Assembly: GCA_017524545.1 (NCBI GenBank)
Contig: JAFXVN010000040.1
Coordinates: 1 to 50,984 of the forward strand
From: Bacteroidaceae bacterium
Lineage (GTDB): Bacteria > Bacteroidota > Bacteroidia > Bacteroidales > Bacteroidaceae
Length of the DNA stretch: 50,984 bases
Reading direction: 5' to 3'
Below are positions 3,293 through 27,430 of the stretch, piece after piece. The notes under the pieces are model-generated. The model was not told the DNA's origin and ran no database searches. It saw nothing but the letters and a program-made list of their open reading frames with translations. The number at the start of each line of letters is the position of its first letter. The first letter of the stretch is position 1. The position numbers were made by a program, and so were the translations under genes.

Positions 3293-4180
3293 ATGGAGCG
3301 CACATACTATTACAGGGTGGGCGGTCACGCTTTGGCTGTCATTTTTACCGATGAGGCAAACGACGACAGGCTTATCCCCTCGTTCGCACCGTTCCGCATA
3401 GAGGAGGAACCAGAAGAGGTGCTTTTCACGATGACCGTGGATGACAGCCTCGACTGGCAGGAGGACGGCGACGAGATTGGCGTGTTCGACTGCGGCGGGT
3501 GCAATCACGGTGTCTATCGCATGGCCGATGGTGGCTATCAGTATGCCGTCCACGATGTGCAGGACGTGCTCTGCAGCCGTATGCGCAGCAATGCCGATTT
3601 CTCGGTCTGCCAGGTGTCGCTCTTCGGCGAGACATGGTCGCAGCGCAACTATGGGCTGAACAACGCCCTGATGATGGCATACGCCTTCGCTGCCGCCTGT
3701 ATGGGGACGATGCTCATGCACGCCTCCGTCATCCGCTGCGAGGGCAAGGGCTATCTGATGACGGCTCCCAGCGGCACGGGCAAGAGCACCCACACGCGAC
3801 TCTGGTACGACAACATCCCCGGTTGCGACCTGATGAACGACGACAATCCTGTGGTGCGCATCATCGACGGTCAGGCCATCGTCTATGGCAGTCCCTGGAG
3901 CGGCAAGACACGCTGCTACCGCAACATACAGGCACCGGTGGGCGGCATCGTCCGCATCCAGCAGCGTCCAGAGAACAGTATTCGCAAGCTCCGTCCTGTC
4001 GAGGCTTTCATCAATCTGCTCCCTGCCATGAGCAACATGAAATGGGACGAGCGCGTCTATAACGGCATTTGCGACGGCATCAGCGAACTCATCCGTCTGG
4101 TCGGGATGTACGAGCTTGGCTGTCTGCCCAATGCCGAGGCCGCGATACTGTGTCACGACACGGTGGCAGGCAAGGATTAA
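3293..4180 (+). CDS. HprK-like serine kinase/phosphorylase-related protein
   Basis: About 295 residues. The C-terminal half has the HprK fold signature: an HASVI strand, a P-loop PSGTGKST (about residues 159-166), a DLMNDDNPVV stretch matching the Walker B region, and GSPWSGK. True HprK phosphorylates HPr. Stand-alone relatives of this kind occur in peptide-maturation clusters (for example lasso peptide PsmC-like kinases), commonly with PqqD-like proteins, which fits the neighbours here. The N-terminal 130 residues are unlike HPr-regulating enzymes. The stop of the upstream gene is 2 bp before this ATG; a GTG at 3287 overlapping that stop is an alternative start. The final residues and stop (GKD, TAA) are supplied by the ggattagagatta repeat. 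Confidence 0.75.
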   Translation: MERTYYYRVGGHALAVIFTDEANDDRLIPSFAPFRIEEEPEEVLFTMTVDDSLDWQEDGDEIGVFDCGGCNHGVYRMADGGYQYAVHDVQDVLCSRMRSNADFSVCQVSLFGETWSQRNYGLNNALMMAYAFAAACMGTMLMHASVIRCEGKGYLMTAPSGTGKSTHTRLWYDNIPGCDLMNDDNPVVRIIDGQAIVYGSPWSGKTRCYRNIQAPVGGIVRIQQRPENSIRKLRPVEAFINLLPAMSNMKWDERVYNGICDGISELIRLVGMYELGCLPNAEAAILCHDTVAGKD

Positions 4181-4212
4181 GGATTAGAGATTAGGGATTA
4201 GAGATTAGAGAT
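4171..4212. repeat. GGATTAGAGATTA repeat at a gene junction
   Basis: Tandem gatta(g/a)(a/g)g units overlap the stop codon of the kinase gene and fill the gap up to the S26 peptidase. The same family in the opposite orientation lies at 27374-27430, where it also supplies a stop codon. Confidence 0.75.
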
Positions 4213-4217
4213 GTGGG

Positions 4218-4745
4218 ATGAAAACGATAATTAAACGCTTGACGCGGGCTTTGCTGACGCCTTGGCGCAGACGCTACCAGAAGCGGAACGGAACGGTCTC
4301 CTCCCAGCCGCGACGTGAGCTGCCCAACGATGTCTGGCTGGGCGAGGTGTCGCAGATGCTGGCCGAGGGCAAGCCCTACGCCATCTATGTCAAGGGTTAC
4401 AGTATGCGTCCCTTCATCGAGCACACACGCGACCGTGTCTTCCTCGAAAAGCGCGACACCTACAGCGTTGGCGATGCAGTGCTGGCACAGATAGCTCCAG
4501 GGCATTATGTCCTGCACCGCATCATCGGGAAGCAGGGCGACAACCTCACGCTGCAAGGCGACGGCAATGTCAGGGGCGTGGAACTTTGCAGGGAACAGGA
4601 CGTGAGCGGCGTGGTGACACAGTACATCCGTCCGAACCGCATCATCCCCGCCGACGACCCGAAGCTCGTCCGCCGCATCCGCCTGTGGCGAAAGCTCCGC
4701 CCAATCAGAAGGTACCTGCTGTTCGTCTATAAAGCAATGGTTTAA
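4218..4745 (+). CDS. S24/S26 family signal-peptidase-like protease, ER-type
   Basis: 175 residues. It has the S26 nucleophile motif YSMRPF (Ser62) and, in place of the lysine of bacterial leader peptidase, a VLHRIIG motif (His100) as in the archaeal/ER/SipW-type Ser-His enzymes, followed by GDGN. There is no strong N-terminal membrane segment; the N-terminus is basic and the C-terminus (YLLFVYKAMV) is weakly hydrophobic. Position between an HprK-like kinase and a PqqD-like protein suggests cleavage of a peptide or small protein handled by the same pathway. This substrate is inferred and no precursor was identified. Confidence 0.8.
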   Translation: MKTIIKRLTRALLTPWRRRYQKRNGTVSSQPRRELPNDVWLGEVSQMLAEGKPYAIYVKGYSMRPFIEHTRDRVFLEKRDTYSVGDAVLAQIAPGHYVLHRIIGKQGDNLTLQGDGNVRGVELCREQDVSGVVTQYIRPNRIIPADDPKLVRRIRLWRKLRPIRRYLLFVYKAMV

Positions 4746-4794
4746 TTTTTCGTTATTACGTAATTACGTTATGACGTTATAACACGATAAAACT

Positions 4795-5064
4795 ATGAAA
4801 ATCAAGAAAGGTTTTGAACTTCGCGAGGTGTGCGGCGAGCACATCATCGTGGCTTACGGCAGAGAGAACATCGACTTCAACAAAGTCATCAGCCTTAACG
4901 AATCGGCAACCTACCTCTGGAAGAACATTGTCGGCAAGGACTTCACGGCAAAGACGTTGGCCGACCTGCTTTGCCAGGAGTACGAAGTGGATGCTGAGAC
5001 GGCAGCAAAAGACGCTCAGACACTGCTCGACGAATGGACGAAGGTGGGGCTTGTTGAAGGGTGA
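4795..5064 (+). CDS. PqqD-family peptide chaperone-like protein
   Basis: 89 residues with the PqqD pattern: an N-terminal beta hairpin, then SLNESATYLWKNI, a helix, and a final winged-helix part ending in WTKVGLVEG. PqqD-type domains (RiPP recognition elements) bind leader peptides and present them to modifying enzymes. Together with the HprK-like kinase and S26 peptidase this forms a compact three-gene set that looks like a peptide or protein maturation module. The 49-bp gap upstream is an ATTACGTAATTACG low-complexity stretch. Confidence 0.8.
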   Translation: MKIKKGFELREVCGEHIIVAYGRENIDFNKVISLNESATYLWKNIVGKDFTAKTLADLLCQEYEVDAETAAKDAQTLLDEWTKVGLVEG

Positions 5065-5136
5065 AAAGTTAAAAGGTTAAAGAGTTAAAGCGTTTATGTC
5101 TTTCCTTTTCAACTTTTCCATTTTTAACCTTTTGCA
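5061..5136. repeat. GTTAAA repeat with inverted partner
   Basis: The left part reads aaaagttaaaaggttaaa and the right part reads ttttccatttttaacctttt, so the two form an imperfect inverted repeat. It overlaps the end of the PqqD gene and the start region of the next gene. Confidence 0.6.
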
Positions 5137-5140
5137 GGAC

Positions 5141-7027
5141 ATGGGCGACACGCTGCGGTTGCCTGTCACGTTCGTCATCATTGAGTTTGTCGGCACCTTC
5201 GCCTTTGCCATCTCCGGCGTACGCCTGTCCAGCACCAAGCAGTTCGACATCTTCGGCGCATGGATTGTCGGTATGGCAACTGCCATCGGTGGCGGAACGA
5301 TTCGCGACCTAATGCTCGGCCTCAATCCCTTCTGGATGACCAACGGCAGCTACTTCGTCTGCTGCGCCCTCGCGGTGCTGGCGGTTGGCATGTTCGGCAA
5401 GTACATCATCCACCACAACTACACTTGGTTCATCTTCGACACCATCGGCCTTGCGCTTTTCAACGTCATCGGCATAGAGAAGACGCTTGCCTTGGGGCAT
5501 CCCTATTGGGTGGCAATCACGATGGGAGCCGTGACGGGAGCAGGCGGCGGTATCATCCGCGATGTCCTGATGAACGACGTGCCCCTCATCTTCCGCAGCG
5601 AAATCTATGCCCTCGCCTGCGTTGCTGGCGGGCTGGCGTATGTGGTTTGTCTGCAATTGGGGCTCAGTGTGGAAATCAGTGCCTTGCTCAGTTCCTTCAG
5701 CGTTATCCTCATCCGCATCCTGGCCGTCAAGTTCCATTGGCAGCTGCCTGTGCTGAAGGGAGAAGACGAGCCTGCCCACGACGAGAACAACATCCTCCGC
5801 ATCATCCTCGTCCCCTTCTTTATTCTTCACTCTTCACTCTTCACGCTTCATTCCCAGACGCAGCAAATCTTCGTCCCGAACGTGCGGACGCTCACCCTGA
5901 CCGTAGGCGACGACCCTACTGCGCCACCCTACATGCCGCTCGGGGGCAGACAGCACATCGACATCGAGTGGGACGAGATGAGCCACGACTACAAGCGCTA
6001 CTTCTACCACATCGACCATCTGGATTGGGACTGGCAACCCACCGACGGCATCTTCGAGAGCGACTATCTGGAGGGGCTCAACGACCAGCTCATCGAGGAC
6101 TTCGAGAAGAGTTTCAACACCACGCAAATCTATACGCATTATCGTCTGCGTGTCCCCTCGAAGGAGATAAAGCTCCGGTTGAGCGGCAACTACCGCGTCC
6201 TCATCTATGAAGAGGACAATAAGGACAATCCTGTGCTGGAGGCTCGTTTCTGCCTTTACGAAAAGGCGGCAGGCATCCTGGCGCAACTGAGCAGCAACAC
6301 CGACATAGACTTCAACCGCAGCCACCATCAGATGACGCTTTCCGTAGGCTATGGCACACTTCCCGTCGTTGACCCGCAGCGCGAGCTGAAGGTCGTTGTC
6401 ATGCAAAACCGCCGCTGGGACAGCCGCATCGAAGACCTTGTTCCCAACGTGCGCAGAGCCAATGGCATAGAGTTCACGCACAACCGGCAGCTCATCTTTC
6501 CCGCAGGCAACGAGTACCACCGCTTCGAGATACTCGACGTGCACCGCACGGCAACGGGGGTGGACCGTATCGAATGGTTCGAGCCTTATTACCACGCCAC
6601 ACTCTATACTGCCGGAATCGACCATGCCTACAGCTATGTCGAGGACCAGAACGGCGTCTTCGTCGTGCGCAGTGCCGATGACTACGACGACTCTACGACG
6701 GCAGAATACATTATCGTCCATTTCTTCCTGCAAAGTCCTCGCTTGCCGGGCGGCGATGTCTATGTCAGCGGTCAGTGGACTGGTCAGACCTTCAATCCCG
6801 ACTGCAAAATGGATTACGACGACATCCGCAAGGAGTATCATGCCGCCATCCTCCTGAAGCAAGGCTATTACAGCTATGAGTTCATACAGCGGGACGGCTT
6901 GACGACCCGGGCGATGGGCAGCTTCTATGAGACGGAAAACGAGTACCAGGTGCTTGTCTATTATCGCGGACAGGGCGCCCGCTACGACCGCCTCGCCGCC
7001 TATAGCGCCATGCACAATGCAAGATAA
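5141..7027 (+). CDS. TRIC-family channel fused to T9SS plug protein (DUF5103)
   Basis: One uninterrupted frame carries two proteins that are normally separate. Residues 1-205 are a TRIC/UPF0126 cation-channel-like membrane protein with about seven membrane segments and the duplicated GGG(T/I)(I/)RD motifs (GGGTIRDLML, GGGIIRDVLM). From about residue 240 (TQQIFVPNVRTLTL...) it is a DUF5103 protein, a family now named type IX secretion plug, periplasmic and acting with the SprA translocon. The joint is a ttcactcttcac repeat translated as a hydrophobic stretch (FFILHSSLFTLHSQ) that looks like the plug protein's signal-peptide core. No ATG lies between the domains, so a separate plug protein would need a non-ATG start. 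A second in-frame ATG at 5096 is an alternative start within repeat sequence. Confidence 0.8.
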   Translation: MGDTLRLPVTFVIIEFVGTFAFAISGVRLSSTKQFDIFGAWIVGMATAIGGGTIRDLMLGLNPFWMTNGSYFVCCALAVLAVGMFGKYIIHHNYTWFIFDTIGLALFNVIGIEKTLALGHPYWVAITMGAVTGAGGGIIRDVLMNDVPLIFRSEIYALACVAGGLAYVVCLQLGLSVEISALLSSFSVILIRILAVKFHWQLPVLKGEDEPAHDENNILRIILVPFFILHSSLFTLHSQTQQIFVPNVRTLTLTVGDDPTAPPYMPLGGRQHIDIEWDEMSHDYKRYFYHIDHLDWDWQPTDGIFESDYLEGLNDQLIEDFEKSFNTTQIYTHYRLRVPSKEIKLRLSGNYRVLIYEEDNKDNPVLEARFCLYEKAAGILAQLSSNTDIDFNRSHHQMTLSVGYGTLPVVDPQRELKVVVMQNRRWDSRIEDLVPNVRRANGIEFTHNRQLIFPAGNEYHRFEILDVHRTATGVDRIEWFEPYYHATLYTAGIDHAYSYVEDQNGVFVVRSADDYDDSTTAEYIIVHFFLQSPRLPGGDVYVSGQWTGQTFNPDCKMDYDDIRKEYHAAILLKQGYYSYEFIQRDGLTTRAMGSFYETENEYQVLVYYRGQGARYDRLAAYSAMHNAR

Positions 7028-7095
7028 AGACCCCCTCTATCTCCCCCCTCTAAGGGGAGAAACAATTGTAAATCGTAAATGGTAAATGATTAAAT
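7028..7095. repeat. Repeat patch supplying the next start codon
   Basis: A degenerate GC-rich block (gaccccctct...ctaagggg) is followed by tandem aaatggtaaat units. The last unit contains the ATG of the permease gene. Confidence 0.7.
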
Positions 7096-8359
7096 GGTAA
7101 ATCGAAAGCCTCTTTCATGGATTCCCACCCTCTATTTGGGTGAGTCATTGCCCTACGCGGCGGTGATGGTCATGTCGCTTGTCCTCTATCAGGAGATGGG
7201 CTTGACGGACACGCAGATAACGCTCTATACAGGATGGCTCGGCCTGCCTTGGGTCATCAAGCCCTTATGGAGTCCGATTGTCGATGGCATCAGGACAAAA
7301 CGCTGGTGGATTCTTACCATGCAGCTGACAATCGGTGCGGCATTGGCTTTGCTGGCCTTTACTCTGCCCACCAGCTTCTGGCTGCAATGCTCGCTGGCTC
7401 TGTTTATGTTGATTGCTTTCAGTAGTGCCACACATGATATTGCTGCCGACGGTTTCTACATCCTCGGTCTGGAGAACAAGGAGCAAGAGCTTTATGTTGG
7501 CCTCCGCAACACCTTTTATCGCATTGGCATGGTGCTTGGACAGGGCGGACTGGTCACGCTGGCTGGACTTTTGCAAGAAAGTGGAGCCTCCATCCCTATC
7601 TCGTGGAGCGTGACGTTCCTGGCAGTTGCAGGCCTGATGCTGATGCTCTTTGCCTATCATTGGCGGATGTTGCCAAAGCCCTCCTCGGACTCCCCAAAGG
7701 TAGAGAAGTTTTCTGTCTTTGAGGACTTCTTTCTTACCCTTAAGGTCTTCTTCACCAAGCCGCATCTCATTACAGCCCTGCTCTTCATCCTCCTTTTCCG
7801 ATTGCCGGAGGGATTGCTTACCAAGATTGTGCCGCTTTTCCTGAAACGCACGGTGGAGGAAGGCGGTTTGGGACTGAGTGACGTCCAGTTCGGCACTATT
7901 TATGGCTCGTTGGGTGTCATCGGACTGCTTGGCGGCGGTATCTTTGGCGGTTGGCTTGTCTCGAAATACAGCCTACGCCGTATGCTTTGGCCGCTTGTGT
8001 TGTGCATAACATTGCCGGATATTGTCTATGTATATCTGAGTTATTATGAAACGCAGAATCTATTCCTCATAGGGTCGTGCGTCTTTATCGAGCAGGCTGG
8101 TTACGGACTGGGCTTTACAGCTTACACGCTTTATCTGGTTCACTTCGCTCATGGCGAGCGTGCCACCTCTGTGTTTTCGTTCTGCACAGCTTTTCAGTCT
8201 CTGGGCGGTGTGATGCTGCCGGGCATGGTGAGCGGCTGGATGTCCGACCAGATGGGCTACGGCCAGTTCTTCATAGCCGTGATGGGCTTCTGCCTCGTCA
8301 CCTTCGCAGTGACGGCAATGGTGAAGTTGCCGGAGGAAGAAAATGAGAAAATAAGATAA
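7094..8359 (+). CDS. MFS permease, AmpG-like
   Basis: 421 residues with about 12 membrane segments. The opening PTLYLGESLPYAAVMVMSLVLYQ and the GWLGLPWVIKPLWSP motif are typical of the AmpG/muropeptide permease branch of the major facilitator superfamily, which brings anhydromuropeptides from periplasm to cytoplasm. The next gene is a DUF1460 amidase-like secreted protein, so the two may form a small cell-wall recycling unit. The first residues MVN come from an ATGGTAAAT repeat, so the start codon appears to have been donated by the repeat. No other start is plausible close by. Confidence 0.8.
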   Translation: MVNRKPLSWIPTLYLGESLPYAAVMVMSLVLYQEMGLTDTQITLYTGWLGLPWVIKPLWSPIVDGIRTKRWWILTMQLTIGAALALLAFTLPTSFWLQCSLALFMLIAFSSATHDIAADGFYILGLENKEQELYVGLRNTFYRIGMVLGQGGLVTLAGLLQESGASIPISWSVTFLAVAGLMLMLFAYHWRMLPKPSSDSPKVEKFSVFEDFFLTLKVFFTKPHLITALLFILLFRLPEGLLTKIVPLFLKRTVEEGGLGLSDVQFGTIYGSLGVIGLLGGGIFGGWLVSKYSLRRMLWPLVLCITLPDIVYVYLSYYETQNLFLIGSCVFIEQAGYGLGFTAYTLYLVHFAHGERATSVFSFCTAFQSLGGVMLPGMVSGWMSDQMGYGQFFIAVMGFCLVTFAVTAMVKLPEEENEKIR

Positions 8360-8365
8360 TAAGAA

Positions 8366-9253
8366 GTGAAGCAAATAATCCCTATTCTCTATTCCCTAAT
8401 CTCTATTCTGCCTCTCTTTGTAAAGGCTCAACCTGTCAGCTACACCCGCGAGGACAGCCTCCGTGTCGTGGAGCTCCTGGAACTTGGCGCAAAGGAAATG
8501 GTAAATGGAAAATTGTCAAATGGTAAATGTTTGACTCTCTTCTACGCCTGCCAGCTGATGAATCTTCCATACGTGGGTCAGACGTTGGAGATTAAGGACA
8601 AGGCAGAGCATCTTGCCATCAACCTTCATGCCCTCGACTGCACGACCTTGGTGGAGAACGTCTGTGCCCTGGCACTCACCACCGGTCACGGCAGCAAGCG
8701 TTGGCAGGACTTCCTTTACTGGTTGCAAAGGCTTCGTTATGATGGAGGGAAGATTGACGGTTACAGCAGCCGCAACCACTACTTCAGCCAGTGGATTCAG
8801 TCTGGCACAAAGCTTGGCCTGGTCAGGGAAGTTGTGCCGCCGGGCAGCATCTCCGTCCCGATGAAGCTCGACCTCACCTATATGAGCAGTCACCCCGAGT
8901 CCTATCCTTTGCTTAAAATCAGCATAGAAGAACGCAAGCTTATCCGCGAAATGGAAAAACGCGCATCTGGAGCCACCATCCACTACATACCGAAGGAAAG
9001 GGTAGGGGACAGCAAGAAGGTGCTCAATTGTATCCACGACGGCGACATTCTCGCCATCACGACCAGCAAGAAAGGCCTCGATGTCAGCCATGTAGGTCTT
9101 GCCGTCTGGGGCGAGGATGGAAAACTCCATCTGCTCAATGCCAGCAGCATCCATAAGAAAGTCGTGCTCGAACCCATGACGCTCTATGACTACATGCAGA
9201 AGCATCCCACCCAGACAGGCATCCGCGTCATCCGCCTGCAATCGCACCCATAA
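8366..9253 (+). CDS. DUF1460 cell-wall amidase-like secreted protein
   Basis: 295 residues from a GTG start 6 bp after the permease stop. DUF1460 proteins are NlpC/P60-like cysteine hydrolases believed to act on peptidoglycan. Here the probable nucleophile is Cys92 in ALDCTTLVENV, and the later DGDILAI...DVSHVGLAVW block supplies the histidine region. The signal peptide core (IPILYSLISILPLF) is encoded by ctctattccctaat repeats. A second repeat-derived insertion, MVNGKLSNGKC, occupies residues 45-55 and appears to be in frame within the domain. The pairing with an AmpG-like permease supports a role in muropeptide turnover. Confidence 0.8.
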   Translation: MKQIIPILYSLISILPLFVKAQPVSYTREDSLRVVELLELGAKEMVNGKLSNGKCLTLFYACQLMNLPYVGQTLEIKDKAEHLAINLHALDCTTLVENVCALALTTGHGSKRWQDFLYWLQRLRYDGGKIDGYSSRNHYFSQWIQSGTKLGLVREVVPPGSISVPMKLDLTYMSSHPESYPLLKISIEERKLIREMEKRASGATIHYIPKERVGDSKKVLNCIHDGDILAITTSKKGLDVSHVGLAVWGEDGKLHLLNASSIHKKVVLEPMTLYDYMQKHPTQTGIRVIRLQSHP

Positions 9254-9296
9254 ACATTTTTCCCGCCATTTCCTTTGCTTGAATGGAATTATTCAC

Positions 9297-9304: not shown

Positions 9305-9329
9305 TACCGCGAAAAGATAAACAGACATT

Positions 9330-10165: not shown

Positions 10166-10384
10166 ATGAACACAAAGAAAGTCATTACGCTATTAGCAGC
10201 GGTGCTGCTGGGTAGTTTGGGAGCATTTGCACAGAGCGGTAACAACGAGCCTATGAGGGGCGACGTTAACGGCGACGGAATTATCGATGTTGCAGACATC
10301 GTCAGTGTTATAAAGATTATGAGGGAAAATGCAACGCCACTATTTCGTCTTTATTTCACTATCTTTCTGCCGCCGACGATGTAG
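10166..10384 (+). pseudogene. Truncated dockerin-type secreted protein
   Basis: The frame begins MNTKKVITLLAAVLLGSLGA, a signal peptide nearly identical to that of the dockerin protein at 10940-12049. It continues with one dockerin-like calcium loop (GDVNGDGIIDVADIVSVIKI) and then stops after a short unrelated tail. The tail (from about 10336) is antisense to the end of the cohesin-like gene. The rest of a normal protein (369 residues in the paralogue) is missing. Most likely a gene fragment left by an inversion or deletion. It could still be made as a 72-residue secreted peptide. Confidence 0.6.
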
Positions 10385-10920
10385 ATTCCCCTCTTCAATT
10401 TACCATTTACCATTTGCCGTCCGCCGAGGTCATAGCATTCACCATTTGACGATTTACCATTTACCATTTGCGGGCTGCTGATTCCTGTGACGATGGATTC
10501 AGCTTCTGTGGCAGCGTAGCTTCTGGCATCCGCATCTGCGAAGCGAATAGTGTATAGTCTGGCGATTCCTTCAGCCGCCTCGCTGTTCATGTTGACAGGA
10601 ATGCGCAGCAGCTCGCCGTCCTTGAACGTGTCGAGGTTCATGCTGTAGAGGATGAACATGCAGTCGCCGTTATCGAGCCTCTCCATGCATAGCGTATGCC
10701 CGTCCGTAGCTTCGCCAATCATGGCATCACCATCCGCAAGTGTCATCCCATCGGGCAGTTCGAGATTGAATTGCAGGGCGGTCATGCCTATAATCCCATT
10801 TGCATTAACGACCAGTTCTGCCTGTGTCCCTGCCTCCGCTTCTAATGGCTCAATGTTGAGCGTCTGTGCTGTCAAGCTGCACGATATTGCAGCCAAAGCA
10901 ATTGTTAGTATGTTTCTCAT
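10351..10920 (-). CDS. Secreted cohesin-like domain protein with sorting-type tail
   Basis: 189 residues. A signal peptide (MRNILTIALAAISCSLTAQ) is followed by a beta-sandwich whose opening (EAEAGTQAELVVNANGIIGMTALQFNLELPDG) has the pattern of cohesin domains, which bind dockerins. The C-terminus YDLGGRQ...GIYIVGGRKIVK matches the tail seen on many Prevotella secreted proteins and probably acts as an outer-membrane sorting signal. Two repeat-derived insertions (MVNGKSSNGEC and MVNGKLK) lie inside this tail, the second splitting the usual GR...GIYI spacing. It lies 19 bp downstream of a dockerin-bearing gene on the same strand. Confidence 0.65.
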   Translation of the reverse strand: MRNILTIALAAISCSLTAQTLNIEPLEAEAGTQAELVVNANGIIGMTALQFNLELPDGMTLADGDAMIGEATDGHTLCMERLDNGDCMFILYSMNLDTFKDGELLRIPVNMNSEAAEGIARLYTIRFADADARSYAATEAESIVTGISSPQMVNGKSSNGECYDLGGRQMVNGKLKRGIYIVGGRKIVK

Positions 10921-10939
10921 TGTTGAATCGTTTTAAGCG

Positions 10940-14375: not shown

Positions 14376-14379
14376 GAGA

Positions 14380-14438
14380 TTTGACAATTTGACAATCTGA
14401 CAATTGACAATTAACGATTGAAGATAAATTGTAAAATT
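14380..14438. repeat. TTGACAATT repeat before the transferase gene
   Basis: Tandem atttgacaa/ctgacaatt units run into the start region of the next gene, which lacks an ATG start. Related TTGACAATT sequence lies at 20925-20960 on the opposite strand. Confidence 0.65.
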
Positions 14439-15038
14439 GTGAAATCTAACAAGGAACTCCTTTGCATCAACGACCACATCGCTGACCTGAGCGAGGCGCA
14501 GACGGAAAGGCTGATTGCCTCGCTACCCGAATGGCGGCGCGAGGTGGCTCTGCGCTTCAAGCACTTGCAGGGCAGGCGGGAGTGTGCCATCGGCTATACC
14601 GAACTGTTGCGAGGGCTTCGGCTCTGCTTTGGCATCGGGGGGATGCCCGCCTTTGCCTATAACGAGCACGGCAAACCCAGCTTGAAGGAATACCCCGGCG
14701 TGCACTTCAGCATCAGCCACTGCAAGGAGGCCGTAGGCTGCCTCGTCAGCGACTGCCCATGCGGTCTGGACATCGAGCGCATCCACAAGGCAAAGGAAGA
14801 CCTCGTGCGCCACACGATGAACCCGGACGAGGCGGAAGCCATCTTTTCTGCCCCAAGTCCCGATGTCGCCTTCACCCGCCTTTGGACACAGAAAGAGGCG
14901 GTCCTGAAGCTTGCCGGCACAGGCATCACCGACGACCTGCGCCACGTCCTTGCCCCGGAAAGACTGCAAGGCATCAGCCTGCAGACCGTGGAGAACCTCT
15001 GCCGGGGCTATGTCTTTACTATAGCAGTTAAGAGTTAA
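14439..15038 (+). CDS. 4'-phosphopantetheinyl transferase, Sfp-type
   Basis: About 199 residues from the GTG at 14439; a TTG at 14418 is also in frame and no ATG is available. Sfp-type enzymes transfer phosphopantetheine from coenzyme A to carrier proteins. The motifs are GVHFSISHC (substrate pocket), CGLDIERI (magnesium-binding Asp/Glu) and FTRLWTQKEAVLKLAG (catalytic Glu/Lys), in the usual order and spacing. The N-terminus is uncertain because the upstream region is repeat sequence. The last residues and stop (AVKS, TAA) are encoded by a gttaagagttaa repeat. Confidence 0.85.
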   Translation: MKSNKELLCINDHIADLSEAQTERLIASLPEWRREVALRFKHLQGRRECAIGYTELLRGLRLCFGIGGMPAFAYNEHGKPSLKEYPGVHFSISHCKEAVGCLVSDCPCGLDIERIHKAKEDLVRHTMNPDEAEAIFSAPSPDVAFTRLWTQKEAVLKLAGTGITDDLRHVLAPERLQGISLQTVENLCRGYVFTIAVKS

Positions 15039-15058
15039 GAATTAAGAGTTAAGAAAGA
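15024..15058. repeat. GTTAAGAATTAAG repeat spanning a stop codon
   Basis: Tandem gttaaga/attaaga units contain the TAA of the transferase gene and end 2 bp before the ATG of the GH130 gene. The same unit family joins the ApbE and Crp genes at 24144-24170. Confidence 0.75.
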
Positions 15059-16189
15059 ATGAAAACCTACATCCTCTTTTTTGCTTCACTTTTGTTTTTG
15101 CTGCCTCTGCAGGCACAGATGATTCCCAACACGGAAAAGAAGTGGGCTTGGCTTGGCTTCGAGCGTCCTGCCGGCGTCAATCCGATTGTCCGTCCCGACA
15201 CGGCAAGCCGTTTCTTCTGCCCGATGCACAAGAGCGTGGCGCAGTGGGAGAACAGCGAGACGTTCAATCCCGCTGCAACCATTATCAACGGCGGCATCGC
15301 CCTGCTCTATCGTGCCGAGGACAACATCGCCAAGGGCATTGGGTCGCGTACGTCCCGCATCGGCTATGCCTATAGCGAGGACGGCATCCACTTCCAGCAC
15401 CACGGCGCACCCGTCCTCTTCCCCGGTGGCGACGAGTGGACGGACTTCGACGCCCCGGGCGGCTGCGAAGACCCGCGCGTCTGCATGACCGAGGACGGCC
15501 TCTACGTCATGACCTATACAAGCTGGAACCGCAAGCTGGCACGCCTGAGTGTCGCCACATCGCGCGACCTCGTGCATTGGACGAAGCACGGCCCCATCTT
15601 CTCCGACGAACACAAAAGCCAGCTCAGCAAGGGCTACACGAAGTCGGGCTCCATCGTGACAGAGATAAAGAACGGCCGTCAGGTCATCGCACGCATCAAA
15701 GGCAAGTACATGATGTACTGGGGCGAGAACTTTGTGAACATCGCCACCAGCGACGACCTCATCCACTGGACACCGATGCTGGCTCCCGACGGCAAGCTGC
15801 TGCACGTCATGGACACGCGCAGGGGATATTTCGACAGCCAGCTCGTGGAATGCGGTCCGCCTGCCATCAAGACAAAGAAGGGCATCATGCTCTTCTACAA
15901 CGGCAAGAACCGAGGAGGCGAGAATGGCGACCGCCGCTTTGCCTCGGGTGCCTATTGTGCAGGGCAGGCACTCTTCTCCCTGAAAGACCCCACCCAGCTC
16001 ATCGACCGTCTGGACGAGCCTTTCTTCTATCCCGAGGACGACTTCGAGAAGAGCGGGCAGTACCCCTCGGGAACGGTCTTCATCGAGGGGCTTGTGCCTT
16101 TCCAGGGCAAGTGGTATCTCTACTACGGATGCGCCGATTCGTTCGTCGGCATGGCAATTTACGACCCTGCAAAAGCCAAGAATCGTTAA
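15059..16189 (+). CDS. Secreted glycoside hydrolase family 130 protein
   Basis: 376 residues. A signal peptide (core ILFFASLLFLLPLQAQ) is followed by a five-bladed beta-propeller. Family marks are NPAATI...LLYRAED, GGCEDPRV (the conserved E-D-P-R of GH130) and the late FIEGLVPFQGKWYLYYG. GH130 members act on beta-mannosides; intracellular ones are phosphorylases, while secreted Bacteroides members with this layout are often hydrolases on beta-1,2-mannosides. The signal peptide favours the second, by inference. No other carbohydrate genes are adjacent, so the target glycan cannot be deduced. Confidence 0.85.
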   Translation: MKTYILFFASLLFLLPLQAQMIPNTEKKWAWLGFERPAGVNPIVRPDTASRFFCPMHKSVAQWENSETFNPAATIINGGIALLYRAEDNIAKGIGSRTSRIGYAYSEDGIHFQHHGAPVLFPGGDEWTDFDAPGGCEDPRVCMTEDGLYVMTYTSWNRKLARLSVATSRDLVHWTKHGPIFSDEHKSQLSKGYTKSGSIVTEIKNGRQVIARIKGKYMMYWGENFVNIATSDDLIHWTPMLAPDGKLLHVMDTRRGYFDSQLVECGPPAIKTKKGIMLFYNGKNRGGENGDRRFASGAYCAGQALFSLKDPTQLIDRLDEPFFYPEDDFEKSGQYPSGTVFIEGLVPFQGKWYLYYGCADSFVGMAIYDPAKAKNR

Positions 16190-19273: not shown

Positions 19274-20887
19274 TTATAAATCTTTTGTTGGCAGCGACTT
19301 CCCCTGGTCAAGTATTTCCTTGGCTTTGATGACTGTGGGGTCGTCCTTTCCGAGGAACATCAGGTAGTCCCGCATTTCGCCTACATTATATATAATGCTG
19401 CCGTAGATGTTGCGTTCGAAGAGGCGGCGGCTCTTTTGGAGCATGAGGTTGCGGCGGCGCAGCTGATGCTTCTCGCCGAACTGTGCGAACTTCTCCAAGA
19501 GGTTTTCCTTGCGGAGGAACTGCTCCATGCGTTCTGCTGTCCGTAGCGATGTGAGCTTGGCACGGTTCTCGTCGGAATAGGCGAAGGCGAACTGGCGGAT
19601 GAGGCCGTTGAAGAAAGCTTCGCGATAGTAGGATGTTACGCCCGTGGTGTCCTCTGGCACAAAGACATCGGGCATAATGCCGCCGCCGCCATAGACAATG
19701 CGGCCGATGCTGGTCTGGTACTGCTCACCCTCCTGGCGGATGCTGTCCTGCGAGAAGAACTCGCCCCGTTCGTAGCGGGCTATGAGGTCGTTTTCGTACT
19801 CTTCACCGTGTCCCTTCTCGTAGGGTTTCTGGATGCAACGGCCGCTGGGGGTGTAGTATCGTGCAACGGTGAGACGCACCACGCTGCCGTCGCGGAACTC
19901 CATCGGCTCTTGCACAAGTCCCTTGCCGAAGGTGCGCCGGCCCACGATGGTGCCTCGGTCGTTATCTTGGATGGCTCCTGCAAATATCTCGCTGGCACTG
20001 GCACTGCCTTCATCCACGAGCACCACAAGAGGGAGCTTTTGGAAGCTGCCGCGTCCGTCGCTGTAGAATTCTTTGCGCGGACTCTTGCGCCCCTCGGTAT
20101 AGACAATCAGCTTGCCGTCTGGCAGGAACTCGTTGACCATCTGGATGGCGATGTGCATGTAGCCGCCTCTATTCCCGCGAAGATCCACGATGAGCTGTGT
20201 CATTCCCTCCATATTGAGTTTGGCCAGGGCGACAAGCATTTCGGCGTATGTTTGTTCGCCGAAGTTCTTTACGCGGATGAAGCCTGTCTTTTCGCCCATC
20301 ATATAGTAGGCATCGACGCTGACCACCGGGATGTCGCCGCGCACGACGGTGAAGTACTGTAGGTCTGCCGCTCCGTGACGCTTGATGCCGAGCATGACCT
20401 TCGAGCCTTTCTCGCCCTTGAGCCGCTTCATCACATTATCGGTGTCCTTTCCGTTGAGCGTGTCCTTGTCTGCCGTAACAATGCGGTCGCCAGCCAGGAT
20501 GCCCACCTTCTCTGCGGGGCCGCCGTGGATGACGGACATGACATTGACGGTGTCTCTTTCCATCGTGAATTGTACGCCGATGCCGCTAAAGGAGCCTTTC
20601 AGGTCTTCGCTTGCCTCCTCTGCATCCTTCGGGCCGAAGTAGCTGCTGTGCGGGTCGAGCTCGCTGAGTATCTGCGGCATGGCATCCTCGACGAGCGTAT
20701 TCATATCGACTGTATCGACGTAGTTGTTGTCGATGAGTTGCAACAGGTAGCCCACCTTGCTTGTTCCTGTATTGATGATGCTGATACGCCCTGTGGAGAA
20801 GTGGTTGGTATAGAATGTGCCGATGAAGATGCCCACGATGGTGCCAAGGGCAATGAGCAGGGGCGTGAAACGATGCTTGTTATCCAT
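19274..20887 (-). CDS. S41 family C-terminal processing protease
   Basis: 537 residues. A single N-terminal membrane anchor (LLIALGTIVGIFIGTFY) is followed by a PDZ domain (GIGVQFTMERDTVNVMSVIHGGPAEKVGI) and the S41 protease domain with catalytic Ser in VDEGSASASEI and Lys in GRRTFGKGLVQ. A C-terminal extension of about 150 residues is typical for Bacteroidetes members. It should cleave periplasmic or envelope proteins near their C-termini. Upstream on the same strand lies the M3 peptidase-deaminase fusion gene. Confidence 0.9.
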   Translation of the reverse strand: MDNKHRFTPLLIALGTIVGIFIGTFYTNHFSTGRISIINTGTSKVGYLLQLIDNNYVDTVDMNTLVEDAMPQILSELDPHSSYFGPKDAEEASEDLKGSFSGIGVQFTMERDTVNVMSVIHGGPAEKVGILAGDRIVTADKDTLNGKDTDNVMKRLKGEKGSKVMLGIKRHGAADLQYFTVVRGDIPVVSVDAYYMMGEKTGFIRVKNFGEQTYAEMLVALAKLNMEGMTQLIVDLRGNRGGYMHIAIQMVNEFLPDGKLIVYTEGRKSPRKEFYSDGRGSFQKLPLVVLVDEGSASASEIFAGAIQDNDRGTIVGRRTFGKGLVQEPMEFRDGSVVRLTVARYYTPSGRCIQKPYEKGHGEEYENDLIARYERGEFFSQDSIRQEGEQYQTSIGRIVYGGGGIMPDVFVPEDTTGVTSYYREAFFNGLIRQFAFAYSDENRAKLTSLRTAERMEQFLRKENLLEKFAQFGEKHQLRRRNLMLQKSRRLFERNIYGSIIYNVGEMRDYLMFLGKDDPTVIKAKEILDQGKSLPTKDL

Positions 20888-20888
20888 T

Positions 20889-20960
20889 TTTCGATTTCAC
20901 CATTTTACAATTTCACAATTCATTTGTACAATTGTCGGATTGTCCAATTGTCAAATGCGA
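20889..20960. repeat. Repeat at the end of the fusion gene
   Basis: On the minus strand it reads tttgacaattggacaat..., then aattgtgaaattg. It encodes the last residues of the deaminase domain (TIGQSDNCTNEL), contains its stop and runs up to the start of the S41 gene. Confidence 0.7.
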
Positions 20961-23447
20961 GACTTCTATGCCTGCTCTGCGCAGGAGGTCAACGCCATCG
21001 GTGAGGCGGTACTCGCGGCTGTAGATGACGCGCTTGATGCCTGCCTGTATGATGAGCTTGGCGCACTCGATGCAAGGCGAGTCGGTGACGTAGAGCGTTG
21101 AGCCGTCGCTGTTGTTGCCGCTGCGGGCTATCTTGGTGATGGCATTGGCTTCGGCGTGAAGGACGTAGGGCTTCGTTACGCCGTTCTCTTCGCAGACATT
21201 CTCGAAGCCAGACGGTGTGCCGTTGTAGCCATCGCTGATGATCATCTTGTCCTTGACGACGAGGGCTCCCACCTGGCGGCGTTGGCAGTAGCTGTTCTCG
21301 CTCCATATCTGTGCCATGCGCAGGTAGCGGCGGTCGAGTTCGCGCTGCTTGGCCTCCCCCTTCCCCTCCAAAGGAGGGGTGATGAGGCCGTTGCGCTTGA
21401 GCAGAGCCTTGATGTCAGGTTCTTTGCCTCGGAAGTTGACATAGAGCTGCATGGGGTCGGCAGTGCCGCCCTTGGAGAGTATTTCGCTGCGGAAGCGTTC
21501 TGCTGTCTCCTTGTCGAAGATGCCTTTTTCAAGGAAGAGGCTGAAAGCGTCGGCATCGAGCACTTCAGCCCATTTGTAGCTATAGTAGCCCGACGCATAG
21601 CCGCCGCTCATGATATGCGAGAACTGCACGCTCATGTTCGTCTCTGGTACGGTGGGCAGCAGTTGCGTGCGGCTCCAAGCCTTGCGCTCGAAGTCCATAA
21701 TGTCCTCCGTAAGTGGCTCCGTAAGGGTATGATAGGCCATGTCGAGCATACAGAAACTGAGCTGGCGGATGCAAGCGTAGCCGCAGTGGAAGTTACGGCT
21801 TTGGCGGATGCGCTGGATGAGTTCGTCGGGTATGGGTGCACCTGTCTCGAAGTGGAAGGCGAAGGTGTGCAGGAACTCGGGCTCGACGGCGAAGTTTTCC
21901 ATCAGCTGCGATGGCAGTTCCACAAAGTCGCGCTTGACGTTTGTCCCGCTCAATGCCTTGTAGTGCACCTTCGAGAAGATGCTGTGCAGGGCGTGGCCGA
22001 ACTCGTGCAGGAAGGTCTCCACCTCGCTCAACGTGAGCAGGGAAGGCTTTTCTGCTGTTGGCTTTGTCAGGTTCATCACGATGCTGACGTGCGGACGATG
22101 GTCGTTGCCTGCATCGTCGGTGTATTGTTCCTGGAAGTCTGTCATCCAGGCACCACTCTGTTTGCTGGGGCGCGGGAAGAAGTCGGCATAGAGGACTGCC
22201 AGGAAACTTCCGTCGGCATCGAACACCTCGTAGGCTTCCACGTCGGGATGATAGACCTCAATGTCTGGTTGCAGACGGAATGTGATGCCATAGAGCATGG
22301 TGGCGAGACCGAAGATGCCGTCCTTGACGTTCTGGAGCTTGAAGTAGGGGCGCAGCATCTCGCTGTCGATGTTATGCTTGCGGAGCTGTTCCTTGTGGCT
22401 GTAATATGAGAAGTCCCAAGGCAGTAGAAGCCTCTCCCCAGCCCTCTCCAAAGGAGAGGGAGATTTGTCGCCGCACCTTTCCCCCTCTCCTTTGGAGAGG
22501 GTTGGGGTGAGGCTGTTTACCTCTTCCTTCGCCACAGGCATATAGTCTTCGAAGAGTTTCTCGATAAGGTCGTTCACGCGAGCCGTGTTTCCTGCCATCC
22601 TGTCTTTCAGGGCATAGTCGGCAAAGCATTTGTAGCCGAGCAGCTGTGCCAGCTCCAGGCGGAGGTTGACTATCCTGCGGATGATTTCGCGGTTGTCGCA
22701 AGTGTCGCCCTTGCAGCAGATGGTGTTCTTTGCCATATACATTTGGCGGCGCAATTCGCGGTCGTCGGCGTATGTGAGGAAGGGACCATAGCTTGGCGCA
22801 TGGAGCGTAAAGAGCCAGCCCTCTTTGCCGCGTTCCTTGGCAGCGAGAGCTGCGGCTTCCTTTGCTGTGTCGGGCAGACCGGCCAGCTGGTGCTCGTCAG
22901 TGATGTGAAGCGCGAAGTCGTTCGTCTGTTTTAGCTCGTTCTGGCTGAACTGTAAACCGAGTTGGGCAAGCTCTGTCTCAATCGCGGCAAACCGCTCCTT
23001 GTCCTCCTTGCCGAGAAGGGCACCGCTGCGGACAAAGGCATCGTATGTGTCGTTCAGGAGTTTCTGCTGTTCCGGAGTGAGCTGTTTCTCCTTTTCTCCT
23101 TTTAACCCTTTCACCCTTTCAAAAAGCTTCTCGTTGTGCATGATGCGGGCATAGTGTTCCGTGAGCATTGGCGAGAGCTTCTGTGCCAGAGCGTCCATCT
23201 CGTCGCATGTGTTGGCGCTGACCAGATTGAAGAAGATGCTGGTGATGCGCTCTAACAGTTCGCCCGTGCGTGGGGCGATGGTGTTCTCGAAGGTCGGCGG
23301 TTCAGGATTGCCGACGATGGCTTCGATGGCTTCGTCTTCCAGTCGCATCGCTTCGAGGATGGCGGGTTCATAGTCCTCCAGCTGGATTTGCGAAAAAGGC
23401 GCTGTCCCGTGGAGTGTCGGGAAAGAAGGGGAAAGAAGGATATTCAT
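20913..23447 (-). CDS. M3 metallopeptidase fused to dCMP deaminase
   Basis: 844 residues in one open frame. Residues 1 to about 687 are an M3-family oligopeptidase/dipeptidyl carboxypeptidase with the zinc motif HEFGH near residue 480. From about 697 it is a complete deoxycytidylate deaminase with the zinc ligands HAE (near 765) and PCIEC (near 790), plus the GALVVKDKMIISDGYNGTP block. The two are joined by ITPPLEGKGEA, which is the translation of a GC-rich inverted repeat (21351-21395). In most Bacteroidales I believe these are separate neighbours. A second repeat pair inserts about 30 residues (NSLTPTLSKGEGER...SPSPLERAGERLLL) near residues 310-341 of the peptidase. Whether the product is cut or acts as one chain is unknown. 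Confidence 0.85.
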   Translation of the reverse strand: MNILLSPSFPTLHGTAPFSQIQLEDYEPAILEAMRLEDEAIEAIVGNPEPPTFENTIAPRTGELLERITSIFFNLVSANTCDEMDALAQKLSPMLTEHYARIMHNEKLFERVKGLKGEKEKQLTPEQQKLLNDTYDAFVRSGALLGKEDKERFAAIETELAQLGLQFSQNELKQTNDFALHITDEHQLAGLPDTAKEAAALAAKERGKEGWLFTLHAPSYGPFLTYADDRELRRQMYMAKNTICCKGDTCDNREIIRRIVNLRLELAQLLGYKCFADYALKDRMAGNTARVNDLIEKLFEDYMPVAKEEVNSLTPTLSKGEGERCGDKSPSPLERAGERLLLPWDFSYYSHKEQLRKHNIDSEMLRPYFKLQNVKDGIFGLATMLYGITFRLQPDIEVYHPDVEAYEVFDADGSFLAVLYADFFPRPSKQSGAWMTDFQEQYTDDAGNDHRPHVSIVMNLTKPTAEKPSLLTLSEVETFLHEFGHALHSIFSKVHYKALSGTNVKRDFVELPSQLMENFAVEPEFLHTFAFHFETGAPIPDELIQRIRQSRNFHCGYACIRQLSFCMLDMAYHTLTEPLTEDIMDFERKAWSRTQLLPTVPETNMSVQFSHIMSGGYASGYYSYKWAEVLDADAFSLFLEKGIFDKETAERFRSEILSKGGTADPMQLYVNFRGKEPDIKALLKRNGLITPPLEGKGEAKQRELDRRYLRMAQIWSENSYCQRRQVGALVVKDKMIISDGYNGTPSGFENVCEENGVTKPYVLHAEANAITKIARSGNNSDGSTLYVTDSPCIECAKLIIQAGIKRVIYSREYRLTDGVDLLRRAGIEVSHLTIGQSDNCTNEL
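22425..22515. repeat. Paired GC-rich inverted repeats inside the M3 domain
   Basis: ctctccaaaggagag and ctctcctttggagag-type hairpin units in opposite arrangement, translated in frame in the minus-strand gene. Unit structure matches those at 67-137 and 35428-35466. Confidence 0.75.
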
Positions 23448-23465
23448 TATTTATGTCGTTATTCC

Positions 23466-24143: not shown

Positions 24144-24175
24144 TTCTCTTGATTCTTAATTCTTAACCCTTAGCT
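24144..24175. repeat. GTTAAGAATTAAG repeat joining ApbE and Crp genes
   Basis: On the minus strand gggttaagaattaag encodes the last residues and stop of ApbE (RVKN, TAA), and the adjoining sequence gives the ATG of the Crp gene. The whole 12-bp gap between the genes is repeat sequence. Confidence 0.7.
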
Positions 24176-25196: not shown

Positions 25197-25938
25197 GGTA
25201 GATATTATTCTTCTGTTTCTCCCTTTCTTTCTTCTTGTTCTTTGCCTTCATGATGTTTTGCCCCACATCAAAGACGACGGTCACAGTGCCGCCCCAGCCG
25301 TTGCCGTCGTTTTTCCCGTAGCCAGGGACGAAGTAAGGCTCTCCTCCGTCTGGGTGGCTGAGGCTGAGACGTGCTTTGTAGCGTATGCTCCAGCCGAGGC
25401 GGACGAAACTCCAGAGCTTTGTCTCGACCGCTGCACCGAACTCAAGCCATTGGGCAGTTGCCTTTTCTCCGTCTATCACCAAGGGGATGGTCGTGCCATA
25501 GACAGGGTCGCTGATTGATGGGTTCCCGATGTCGTACTTGAAGCTGCTGAATCCGTAGCGGAAGAGGCCGAAGAGACGGTTGCCGTTGTGCTTCTTGTTG
25601 AAGTTGTAGTCTATGCCGAAGCGCATGTAGGGTGCAGTCGTGCTGAAGGTGTTGCCCGATTCCGCTCCTTCCCGGTGGCAGTCGCCGATGCCGAGGTCTG
25701 CAGCGGGAAAGAACTTGTCGTAGAGGTTGAGTCGTGCGCTGACCTCCATGTTGGCGAATTTGGCGCCCATGGCTTTCATGGCAAAGCCAACGAGGTCGGC
25801 ACTGACAGCAATGCCACTGAGCAGAGGTGCCTTCTCCTTGTCCTTCTGCTTTGGCTTTCCTTTGGCTTGCAGCGAGAGGCAGGCCAGGCTAATCAGAAGC
25901 AGAATACAGGTGAATCTGCAGGTTCTCGGTCGTTTCAT
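25177..25938 (-). CDS. DUF6048 family outer-membrane-type protein
   Basis: 253 residues. A signal peptide (CILLLISLACLSLQA) is followed by alternating amphipathic strands with aromatic ends, as in small outer membrane barrels (MRFGIDYNFN, LFGLFRYGFSSFKYD). The C-terminal tail is Lys/Glu rich. It matches the DUF6048 family by pattern and by its partner, a DUF6452 lipoprotein overlapping it by 50 bp upstream. The two are usually found together in Bacteroidales; function unknown. Confidence 0.7.
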   Translation of the reverse strand: MKRPRTCRFTCILLLISLACLSLQAKGKPKQKDKEKAPLLSGIAVSADLVGFAMKAMGAKFANMEVSARLNLYDKFFPAADLGIGDCHREGAESGNTFSTTAPYMRFGIDYNFNKKHNGNRLFGLFRYGFSSFKYDIGNPSISDPVYGTTIPLVIDGEKATAQWLEFGAAVETKLWSFVRLGWSIRYKARLSLSHPDGGEPYFVPGYGKNDGNGWGGTVTVVFDVGQNIMKAKNKKKEREKQKNNIYHADEKP

Positions 25939-26362
25939 AGTTCACGGAGGGGCGTGTGATGGAGATGGATTCGATAAAATCGTGTGTGGAGCGCACGTCT
26001 TGTATGGTGTGGAATAGCTTTGCTGGGCAGTCGGGCGATTCGTAGTGCACGAGGTTGGTCTTCGTTATCCAAACTGTATCTTGGAAGAAATAGCCATTGC
26101 TATTGATGCTAAATACCAGGGTGTCCTCGTCTTGCCAGTAGCTCAGGGGCAGTGTGAGTTGGGCTGTGCCCACGGAGCGGTTGAGCAGGACGGCATCCGT
26201 GCCGCAAGCTGTGATGGTGAGCGTGTCGTTGATAGCCACCGCCTTGCCGTCTTGATAGAATGCACCGTACATGTTGACGGCGTTGTAGAGCGTACAGTCA
26301 TACGACTCACAGGCGGCGAGTAGGACAAGACTTGACAATATGAACAGAAGCCGTTGCCTCAT
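25889..26362 (-). CDS. DUF6452 family lipoprotein
   Basis: 157 residues. The lipobox LLAAC at residues 14-18 indicates a lipoprotein. The mature part begins ESYDCTLYNAV and continues as a beta-rich domain, the DUF6452 pattern. It is translationally coupled on both sides: 4-bp overlap with the GT2 gene upstream and 50-bp overlap with DUF6048 downstream. Function unknown, probably with DUF6048 at the outer membrane. Confidence 0.7.
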   Translation of the reverse strand: MRQRLLFILSSLVLLAACESYDCTLYNAVNMYGAFYQDGKAVAINDTLTITACGTDAVLLNRSVGTAQLTLPLSYWQDEDTLVFSINSNGYFFQDTVWITKTNLVHYESPDCPAKLFHTIQDVRSTHDFIESISITRPSVNYETTENLQIHLYSASD

Positions 26363-27321
26363 ATCTCTTTCTCAATCTGATAGTTGTTGCGCTCGGGGGC
26401 ATTGCGGCTGATGAGTTCGCCAAGGAAGCCTGCCACGAAAAGCTGTGTGCCAAGAATCATCATCGTGAGTGCGATGTAGAAATACGGACTGCTGGTGACG
26501 AGCGGGTGGGGGATGCCGTTCCAGATGCAATAGAGTTTTGTGCCGCCAACGACCATTACAGCCAGAAAGCCAATCAGGAACATCAGCGTGCCGATGAAGC
26601 CGAACACATGCATGGGCTTGAGTCCGAAGCTGTCTAAGAACCAGAGCGAGAGCAGGTCGAGATAGCCGTTCACAAAGCGGTTAAGCCCCATGAATTTCGA
26701 CTTGCCAAACTTGCGTGCCTGATGGTGTACGCGCTTTTCGCCGATGCGGGTGAAGCCTGCATTCTTGGCAAGGTAGGGGATATAGCGGTGCATCTCGCCA
26801 TAGACTTCAATGTTTTTCACCACTTCCTTGCGATAAGCCTTCAGCCCGCAGTTGAAGTCGTGCAGGTTGTGGATACCGCTCACCTGTCTTGCCGTTGCAT
26901 TGAAAAGCTTTGTGGGTATGGTCTTCGACAGGGGGTCGCCCTTGCTGCGATTCATCTTGTAGCCGCTCACAAGGTCATACCCGTCCTGGGTTATCATGCG
27001 GTAGAGTTCTGGAATCTCGTCGGGCGAGTCCTGCAGGTCGGCGTCCATCGTGATGACCACATCGCCCTGGGCGGCTCCGAAGCCGCAATAGAGGGCAGGA
27101 CTCTTGCCATAGTTGCGGCGGAACTTAATGCCGTGTACCGTGTCGGGATTCTCTGATTTCAGTTGCTCGATGACCTCCCAAGAACGGTCGGTGCTGCCAT
27201 CGCTGACGAATATGACTTCGTAGGAGAAACCATGCGTCTGCATGACGCGCTTTATCCAACTAAAAAGCTCGGGCAGCGACTCATCCTCGTTGTAAAGAGG
27301 AACGATAACACTTATATCCAT
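26359..27321 (-). CDS. GT2 glycosyltransferase, polyprenol-phosphate type
   Basis: 320 residues. An N-terminal GT-A domain (DISVIVPLYNEDESLPELF, metal-binding DADLQDSPDEIP) precedes two C-terminal membrane helices, the plan of DPM1/ArnC/GtrB-like enzymes that transfer a sugar onto a lipid carrier phosphate. It follows the DUF4199 gene, its usual neighbour in Bacteroidetes. The start lies next to aattttgaattt repeats. Confidence 0.85.
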   Translation of the reverse strand: MDISVIVPLYNEDESLPELFSWIKRVMQTHGFSYEVIFVSDGSTDRSWEVIEQLKSENPDTVHGIKFRRNYGKSPALYCGFGAAQGDVVITMDADLQDSPDEIPELYRMITQDGYDLVSGYKMNRSKGDPLSKTIPTKLFNATARQVSGIHNLHDFNCGLKAYRKEVVKNIEVYGEMHRYIPYLAKNAGFTRIGEKRVHHQARKFGKSKFMGLNRFVNGYLDLLSLWFLDSFGLKPMHVFGFIGTLMFLIGFLAVMVVGGTKLYCIWNGIPHPLVTSSPYFYIALTMMILGTQLFVAGFLGELISRNAPERNNYQIEKEI

Positions 27322-27430
27322 CTTATAGCAAATTCAAAATTATTAAATTCAAAATTCAAATGTAGCAGGCATCTCCCCTAATCCCTATTCCCTATTCTCT
27401 ATTCTCTATTCCCTATTCCCTAATCCTTAT
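27322..27430. repeat. TTCAAAATT and CCCTATTC repeats between genes
   Basis: From left to right: attcaaaatt units (27329-27360), then tandem ccctattc/ctctattc/ccctaatcc units (27374-27430). The second run overlaps the end of the DUF4199 gene and supplies its last residues and stop (NKD, TAG). It is the reverse complement of the family at 4171-4212. Confidence 0.75.

Follow-up and report, generated by a model that had tools for sequence, protein, structure and literature searches.

Degenerate heptads between genes are known from the short tandemly repeated repetitive sequences of cyanobacteria, and repetitive extragenic palindromic (REP) and REPIN elements have inverted arms and RAYT transposases. 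Researchers have also found long simple sequence repeats with heptanucleotide units in bacteria (Mrazek 2007, as reported in PMC4679880 and PMC4692102), TAACTGA arrays in Beggiatoaceae and GGGAATC arrays in Xanthomonas, with similar ones in Nostoc (PMC4679880; PMC4692102); such arrays have a period of 7, are mostly intergenic, often lie near starts and are very unevenly spread among species. Likewise already in print are palindromes of about 100-150 bp in frame in unrelated housekeeping genes of Rickettsia, Wolbachia and Methanocaldococcus (PMC10969869; PMC2996958) and the GTAG/CGTC end tag of REP/REPIN elements (PMC3733652). Here we describe degenerate tandem arrays with a period of 7 or 8 bp in a window of 50,984 nucleotides (the whole stretch analysed) of a Bacteroidaceae bacterium (GCA_017524545.1, contig JAFXVN010000040.1), which exceed chance, come and go between related species and lend codons and residues to genes, probably as a by-product of recurrent insertion. 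They share with the heptanucleotide repeats seven-nucleotide tandem units above chance and mainly between genes, but they also have period 8, comprise 44 different units among 74 arrays, lie in frame in proteins, code signal-peptide-like segments and supply adopted stop codons. The TAACTGA type, one fixed heptamer just 5' of starts, is not what we see, as the units are many and starts are overlapped no more than at random. With the cyanobacterial repeats they have in common degenerate heptads between genes. Among the papers listed by a literature search that covered few subscription journals, none dealt with arrays of this kind in Prevotella-like bacteria.

The window comes from contig 68 of a draft genome of 85 contigs and 3.6 Mb (coded G000). 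For the GT2 gene of the window, the nearest named relatives lie in metagenome genomes from gut or rumen that carry the labels Bacteroidaceae, Prevotellaceae or Bacteroidales. The original prediction named four repeat motifs, and all four are present and commoner than in any of 100 dinucleotide shuffles: with one mismatch allowed, GGATTAGAGATTA occurs twice (shuffle mean 0.02), GTTAAGAATTAAG three times (0.04) and AAATGGTAAAT 15 times (0.66), and TTGACAATT has 4 exact copies (0.51). These motifs are members of the degenerate tandem arrays, 74 of which were collected in a 448-kb sample of the genome made up of the window and 20 further stretches (397 kb from 5 contigs, chosen because they were known to hold GGATTAGAGATTA matches), with genes called by a non-standard, in-house script. 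The arrays are real and beyond chance. Intergenic arrays number 8 in the window against a shuffle mean of 0.02 and 27 in the other 397 kb against 0.00 (50 shuffles), and arrays in coding DNA number 7 and 18, respectively, against 0 in three shuffles. Period 7 accounts for 21 arrays in 78 kb of intergenic DNA, where a single dinucleotide shuffle yields 1, and for 7 in the 370 kb of coding DNA; the period peaks in the 448 kb are 7, 8, 14, 16, 21, 22 and 28, and period 9 has 3 arrays only. Counts of GATTAGG and TTTTCAC read backward are no valid control, because both motifs are mirror-symmetric. The idea that units diverge mainly by transitions was rejected, the transition/transversion ratio of 0.78 against 0.41 expected from composition being uninformative. 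At the gathering threshold, Rfam reports for the window a small SRP RNA and one tRNA alone and no known structured RNA at the arrays; the SRP RNA is the Bacteroidales small type (28103-28283), with the tRNA directly after it.

For comparison, 60 further congeners, one genome per species, were drawn from a larger group (61 with G000). As the original prediction had proposed, orthologous borders were aligned, here across congeners: 19 borders in up to 11 of them, 68 of 228 cells being omitted (orthologs missing, on the opposite strand or distant), which left 160 scored alleles. An array is borne by 25 of the 160, with G000 contributing 10 of 19, a figure inflated by the choice of the window for its repeats, and the relatives 15 of 141; the stop lies inside the array in 14 of the 25 and the start in 13. 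Array presence varies among congeners, and one sequence shared by the relatives at every border, which would have spoken for conservation by function, was not found.

A border gained an array repeatedly. Between the gene called a 'kinase' by the earlier reader, for which no Pfam family was found, and the S24-like gene lies a GATTAG[AG] heptad array (4169-4223, + strand) that holds the stop TAA at 4178-4180 and reaches the next start at 4218. The GATTAGG array occurs at this border in 4 of 11 genomes (G000, G020, G036 and G005), a plain ATGA overlap in five of ten relatives (G012, G024, G008, G052 and G035), and other spacers in G027 and G013. The tree of eight concatenated proteins and the 'kinase' nucleotide tree agree on the sister pairs G036/G052 and G005/G035, and the array state differs within both; in the S24 tree G005 stays with G035, but the neighbours of G036 are G052, G012 and G024, which form a group. 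The array would thus have been acquired some three times or more, barring several exact restorations of the overlap. At the S24-like/PqqD border (4745/4795), where G000 carries a TTATTACG octad array (4744-4793, +), 9 of 10 relatives have the ATGA overlap, and the arrays of G000 and G020 are unlike. A GTTAAAAG octad array (5057-5103, +) contains the stop of the PqqD gene as well as the start of the following open reading frame (ORF; 5096-7027), and its inverted partner (5105-5133, +) codes much of the N-terminus MSFLFNFSIFNLL; the stretch 5057-5140 folds with z -2.97 relative to shuffles. A similar array with an inverted partner is found at this border (5064/5096) in G000, G027 and G036, scattered on the tree, with possible remnants elsewhere. 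The GT2/DUF6452 border has a 4-bp overlap and no array in G000 and nine relatives and a 1-bp overlap in G045, with no data for G005. An intergenic gap holds an octad array of AAAAGGT[GA] (49360-49406, +).

The original prediction also traced six codons to repeats. The stops of the 'kinase', the phosphopantetheinyl transferase (PPTase) and the DUF4199 gene and the start of the permease lie inside scanned arrays and, judged against relatives, look array-derived; the Crp start is not, and the ApbE stop is doubtful. A GTTAAGA heptad array (15019-15063, +) codes the last PPTase residues (VKS) and the stop, and a TTGACAA array (14379-14421, +) touches the called, uncertain TTG start of this gene. 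The DUF4199 tail NKD and stop come from a GAATAGG heptad array (27369-27440, -). A TAAATGG heptad array (7068-7102, +) supplies the MVN start of the permease, which begins with MKTTKPLLW in G008, MKNKPLSW in G013 and MNKPLSW, from a different array, in G027; another array (8338-8373, +) lies at the permease stop and the AmiA-like start. Octad arrays (20883-20956, -) code the C-terminus and stop of the M3 peptidase/deaminase ORF. The TTAAGAA heptad array at the ApbE stop (24147-24174, -) is shorter and was flagged by a looser scan, and the tail of the protein, LRVKN, is common to G020, where no array was found, so that at most the ApbE TAA is array-derived. An array origin of the Crp start was rejected: a single mismatched AAATGGTAAAC copy overlaps it, and the array-free G036 (MVNDYALL) and G052 (MINDYALL) start nearly alike. 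The protein ends were as foreseen, namely KD in the 'kinase' and DUF4199 proteins, KS in PPTase and KN in ApbE, with MVN starts in the permease and Crp. Such KD, KN or KS ends occur in 3 of 17 genes with the stop in an array and 5 of 291 others (Fisher p = 0.007).

Insertion at borders with adoption of codons was the core of that earlier proposal, and it holds in so far as the arrays are lineage-specific and codons were adopted; that borders or codons are special targets is not supported. Targeting was suggested by random placement over all intergenic DNA (17 stops overlapped against 3.7 expected, 13 starts against 3.6), but it was rejected after placement within the same gap, which gave no clear excess (17 stops against 13.4 ± 2.2, 13 starts against 15.1 ± 2.5). 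This indicates that the arrays fill short gaps and that the codons follow. Arrays over stops lean to purines on the gene strand (mean skew +0.31). The best reading is that codon adoption is a by-product of repeat insertion and not a targeted supply of codons.

The arrays also reside in frame in proteins, 24 of the 74 lying wholly inside called ORFs, and 8 of these 24 were compared with orthologs. In the ORF 5096-7027, a fusion of a glycine-transporter-like domain and a type IX secretion system (T9SS) plug, a CTTCACT heptad array (5812-5856, +) codes the hydrophobic segment FILHSSLFTLHS. At a loose threshold, with eight relatives examined, the segment was found to be coded by CTTCACT heptads in G000, G008, G035 and G020, by CTTTTCACC-type octads in G036 and G052 and by TTGTC-type heptads in G005, with no array detected in G027 and G012. 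Depending on the species, three distinct array families encode this single segment, and the predicted transporter/plug fusion is older than any single array. Matches to the fusion span both domains without a stop in ten congeners and with one TGA in G035; in the remaining genomes the matches are separate, cover a single domain or contain stops. The signal-peptide-like IIPILYSLISIL of the AmiA-like protein is coded by a CTATTCC heptad array (8375-8410, +). Among six relatives, also scanned loosely, it is array-coded in G008 by a different heptad (GTTGTCT type) and not array-coded in four others, and in G052 there is an array, but upstream of the start. Each of the four arrays found inside an ORF no more than 150 bases from its start is rich in pyrimidines on the coding strand. 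AAATGGT arrays lie in frame further along the AmiA-like protein (GAKEMVNGKL; 8496-8529, +) and near the C-terminus of the ORF 10351-10920 (GGRQMVNGKL; 10392-10469, -), and four in-ORF arrays, with a fifth by a looser match, precede a C-terminal YDLSGR-like motif, a hallmark of sorting domains.

Some in-frame arrays add length. The S15-like peptidase contains an octad array together with an inverted octad array (42120-42209, +). All 18 of 18 covering orthologs have a shorter loop than this two-array one, although several possess a repeat-like KVKSEK stretch of their own. The array at 5549 of locus L024 gives clear extra length against 9 of 9 orthologs, and the loop at 9116 of L009 is longer than in relatives, the nearest differing by as little as one residue. 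In L223 and L224, which hold orthologs of the L009 7372-10341 protein, array-like inserts lie in frame at a further loop (LLKNEKLKAKSEKLGVEGEG in L223). Little or no length is gained, despite array-like sequence, in L024 at 6705, the fused-ORF segment, the AmiA-like signal peptide and the M3 peptidase stretch RVKGLKGEKEKQ (octad array 23081-23124, -), which is one residue longer than in five orthologs. The same M3 peptidase holds a GC-rich palindrome in frame (TLSKGEGERCGDKSPSPLERAGE; 22442-22501, -) that is absent from 5 of 5 orthologs. In its ORF (20913-23447), domains of peptidase M3 and dCMP deaminase are joined; G013 and G045 likewise give a match over both, and the other relatives with data give one over a single part only.

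Several arrays are paired with an inverted copy, 14 of 74 having a partner within 120 bp against 2.2 expected, and hairpins with 14-bp perfect arms number 28 in the 448 kb, 7 of them inside ORFs, compared with about 0.15 expected in uniform random sequence. Two dispersed palindromes stand out. Element A has octad arms and resembles the S15 insert; its 21-mer is exact in 16 of 61 genomes, with 32 overlapping matches in G018. CTP synthase, GMP synthase, glutamate synthase (GltB), an acetylornithine-type aminotransferase and GcvPB each carry it in frame, several of the fragments scoring below whole-protein cut-offs, and in G031 (L248, 413-501) element A links carA to carB at their border within a single open frame. 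Element B is a GC-rich palindrome of two inverted arms, each with an inner palindrome; its 23-mer is found in 15 of 61 genomes, 32 times in G000, with 0 in the backward control, and MutS2, UvrA, PurM and a DEAD helicase contain it in frame. Both elements, like Rickettsia palindromic elements (RPE), are palindromes in frame in unrelated conserved genes, but the hosts here are rumen Bacteroidales, the arms of element A are 8-bp repeats and one CTP synthase loop takes several families. Of 30 CTP synthase loci, 6 were unreadable; the other 24 congeners carry element A in 3, GC-rich palindromes in 6, other long loops in 2 and short loops in 13, which are empty orthologs. The sole empty-site comparison for element B is the L024 protein, where most relatives carry other sequence. 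On the window's own contig, the CTP synthase of G000 (L281, G000:C68:64114-65028) bears an in-frame GC-rich palindrome that closely matches the one in the more distant G015, being nearly identical to it, which hints at transfer. Element B resembles REPIN structures in its two inverted arms with inner palindromes, but it differs in lacking a flanking transposase: no element B arm (up to 5 mismatches) lies within about 1.5 kb of any of four Y1 transposase-like matches (L269-L272, one under the cut-off), and mobilisation by RAYT was rejected on this ground. L270, L271 and L272 are Y1-transposase-like open frames of 375-408 codons.

We consider it fairly probable that the arrays of this genus of rumen Bacteroidales arise by recurrent insertion filtered by selection, with codons adopted as a by-product. 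Degenerate arrays of about 20-100 bp would be laid down repeatedly at new sites, perhaps by slippage-prone or templated repair synthesis or by copying of ready-made elements, and selection would remove those that break genes, leaving survivors in short intergenic gaps, signal peptides, protein loops and promoter neighbourhoods, the last being where TTTTCAC arrays are seen in association with promoter-like boxes. When an array fills a short gap, the upstream gene may stop in it, often on the purine-rich strand with its TAA, TAG and TGA, or the downstream gene may start there. The pyrimidine-rich sense can be free of stops and code hydrophobic residues, which could yield a signal peptide or membrane segment, and arrays paired with an inverted copy would, together with GC-rich palindromes, make up the dispersed in-frame elements. 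Several observations weigh against this account. The insertion process is deduced from differences between species, each represented by one genome, with no strain case within a species; no target-site duplication or responsible enzyme was found, and the Y1-like matches stand apart from element B. The return of a single heptad family to the same border would be surprising under random arrival, and replacement of sequence without change of length (M3 stretch, fused-ORF segment, L024 6705) is unexplained by simple insertion. The array evidence comes from assemblies that are mostly or all metagenomic, and both the border panel (17 of 21) and the in-protein ortholog scan (hydrophobic segment, signal peptide and ApbE) used looser thresholds without their own shuffle controls.

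It is unlikely, in our estimation, that the arrays are pieces of mobile RPE- or REPIN-like palindromes copied whole, the simple arrays being worn or one-armed copies. The octad arms of element A and its 21-mer in 16 of 61 genomes, the 32 element B arms in G000 and the excess of inverted partners and hairpins would all fit, but 60 of the 74 arrays have no inverted partner at the same score, shuffled sequences fold as well as the GATTAGG and TTATTACG border arrays, and the 74 arrays comprise 44 different units. Rather less credible is a standing function at borders, in ribosome loading, transcript ends or promoters, maintained by selection, with codon overlap following from the fixed position. 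The purine lean over stops speaks for it, and so do the TTTTCAC arrays, for example at 1977-2029 (+), where a promoter-like TAnnTTTG box, the Bacteroidetes -7 box, lies at the downstream end. Such a box is found no more than 40 bp from the downstream end in 6 of 9 TTTTCAC arrays of the own-genome sample and 11 of 18 in named loci, against 0 of 9 and 1 of 18 at the opposite end. Judging from this arrangement, TTTTCAC arrays are probably part of promoters, which fits the frequency with which divergent gaps hold arrays (10 of 25, against 33 of 254 co-directional junctions, window included; p = 0.0015). However, promoter bias is slight in other families (downstream, 5 of 37 and 8 of 55; upstream, 4 of 37 and 3 of 55), 24 of the 74 arrays lie inside ORFs, and junction arrays can be present in one sister species and missing from the other, with unlike sequences at a single border.

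Ancestral arrays lost by deletion in relatives are an improbable explanation. The scattered occurrence of the 5064/5096 array with its inverted partner could be read in this way, but the ATGA overlap, which the basal pair G012/G024 has, would have to be restored several times at 4180/4218 and 4745/4795. An artefact of metagenome-assembled genomes seems least plausible by far. Array motifs do lie in the first 30 bases of G000 contigs C3, C13, C19, C29 and C57, where arrays may break the assembly, and among 80 named loci a period-7/8 array is found in 34 (one more matched only on an N run) and in 0 of the 9 that are isolates by title, none of them known as this genus. Against this, diverged in-frame elements occupy the same orthologous site in separate species (GltB-like L241/L246, CTP synthase G018/G031, DEAD helicase L256/L258), and arrays occur in metagenome-assembled genomes with different study labels. 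Of 198 genomes of the order, 13 have three copies of TTTTCAC, with the highest number in G000, and the tandem heptad recurs in a few genomes from distant families.

Beyond recurrent insertion, we advance more speculatively, and as rather a long shot, an active writing process, perhaps error-prone or templated synthesis at breaks, that would place arrays of 7/8-bp units, frequently paired with an inverted copy, at gene joints and in loops. If true, it would be a steady source of new stops, starts, signal peptides, loops and gene fusions such as carA-carB through element A, and signal peptides would have been made several times at one site from different arrays. With its many close species, this is a natural system in which the birth of stops, starts, signal peptides, loops and fusions from simple repeats can be traced. 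It also calls for caution, because predicted gene starts, protein tails and low-complexity loops of rumen Bacteroidales may be recent repeat insertions.

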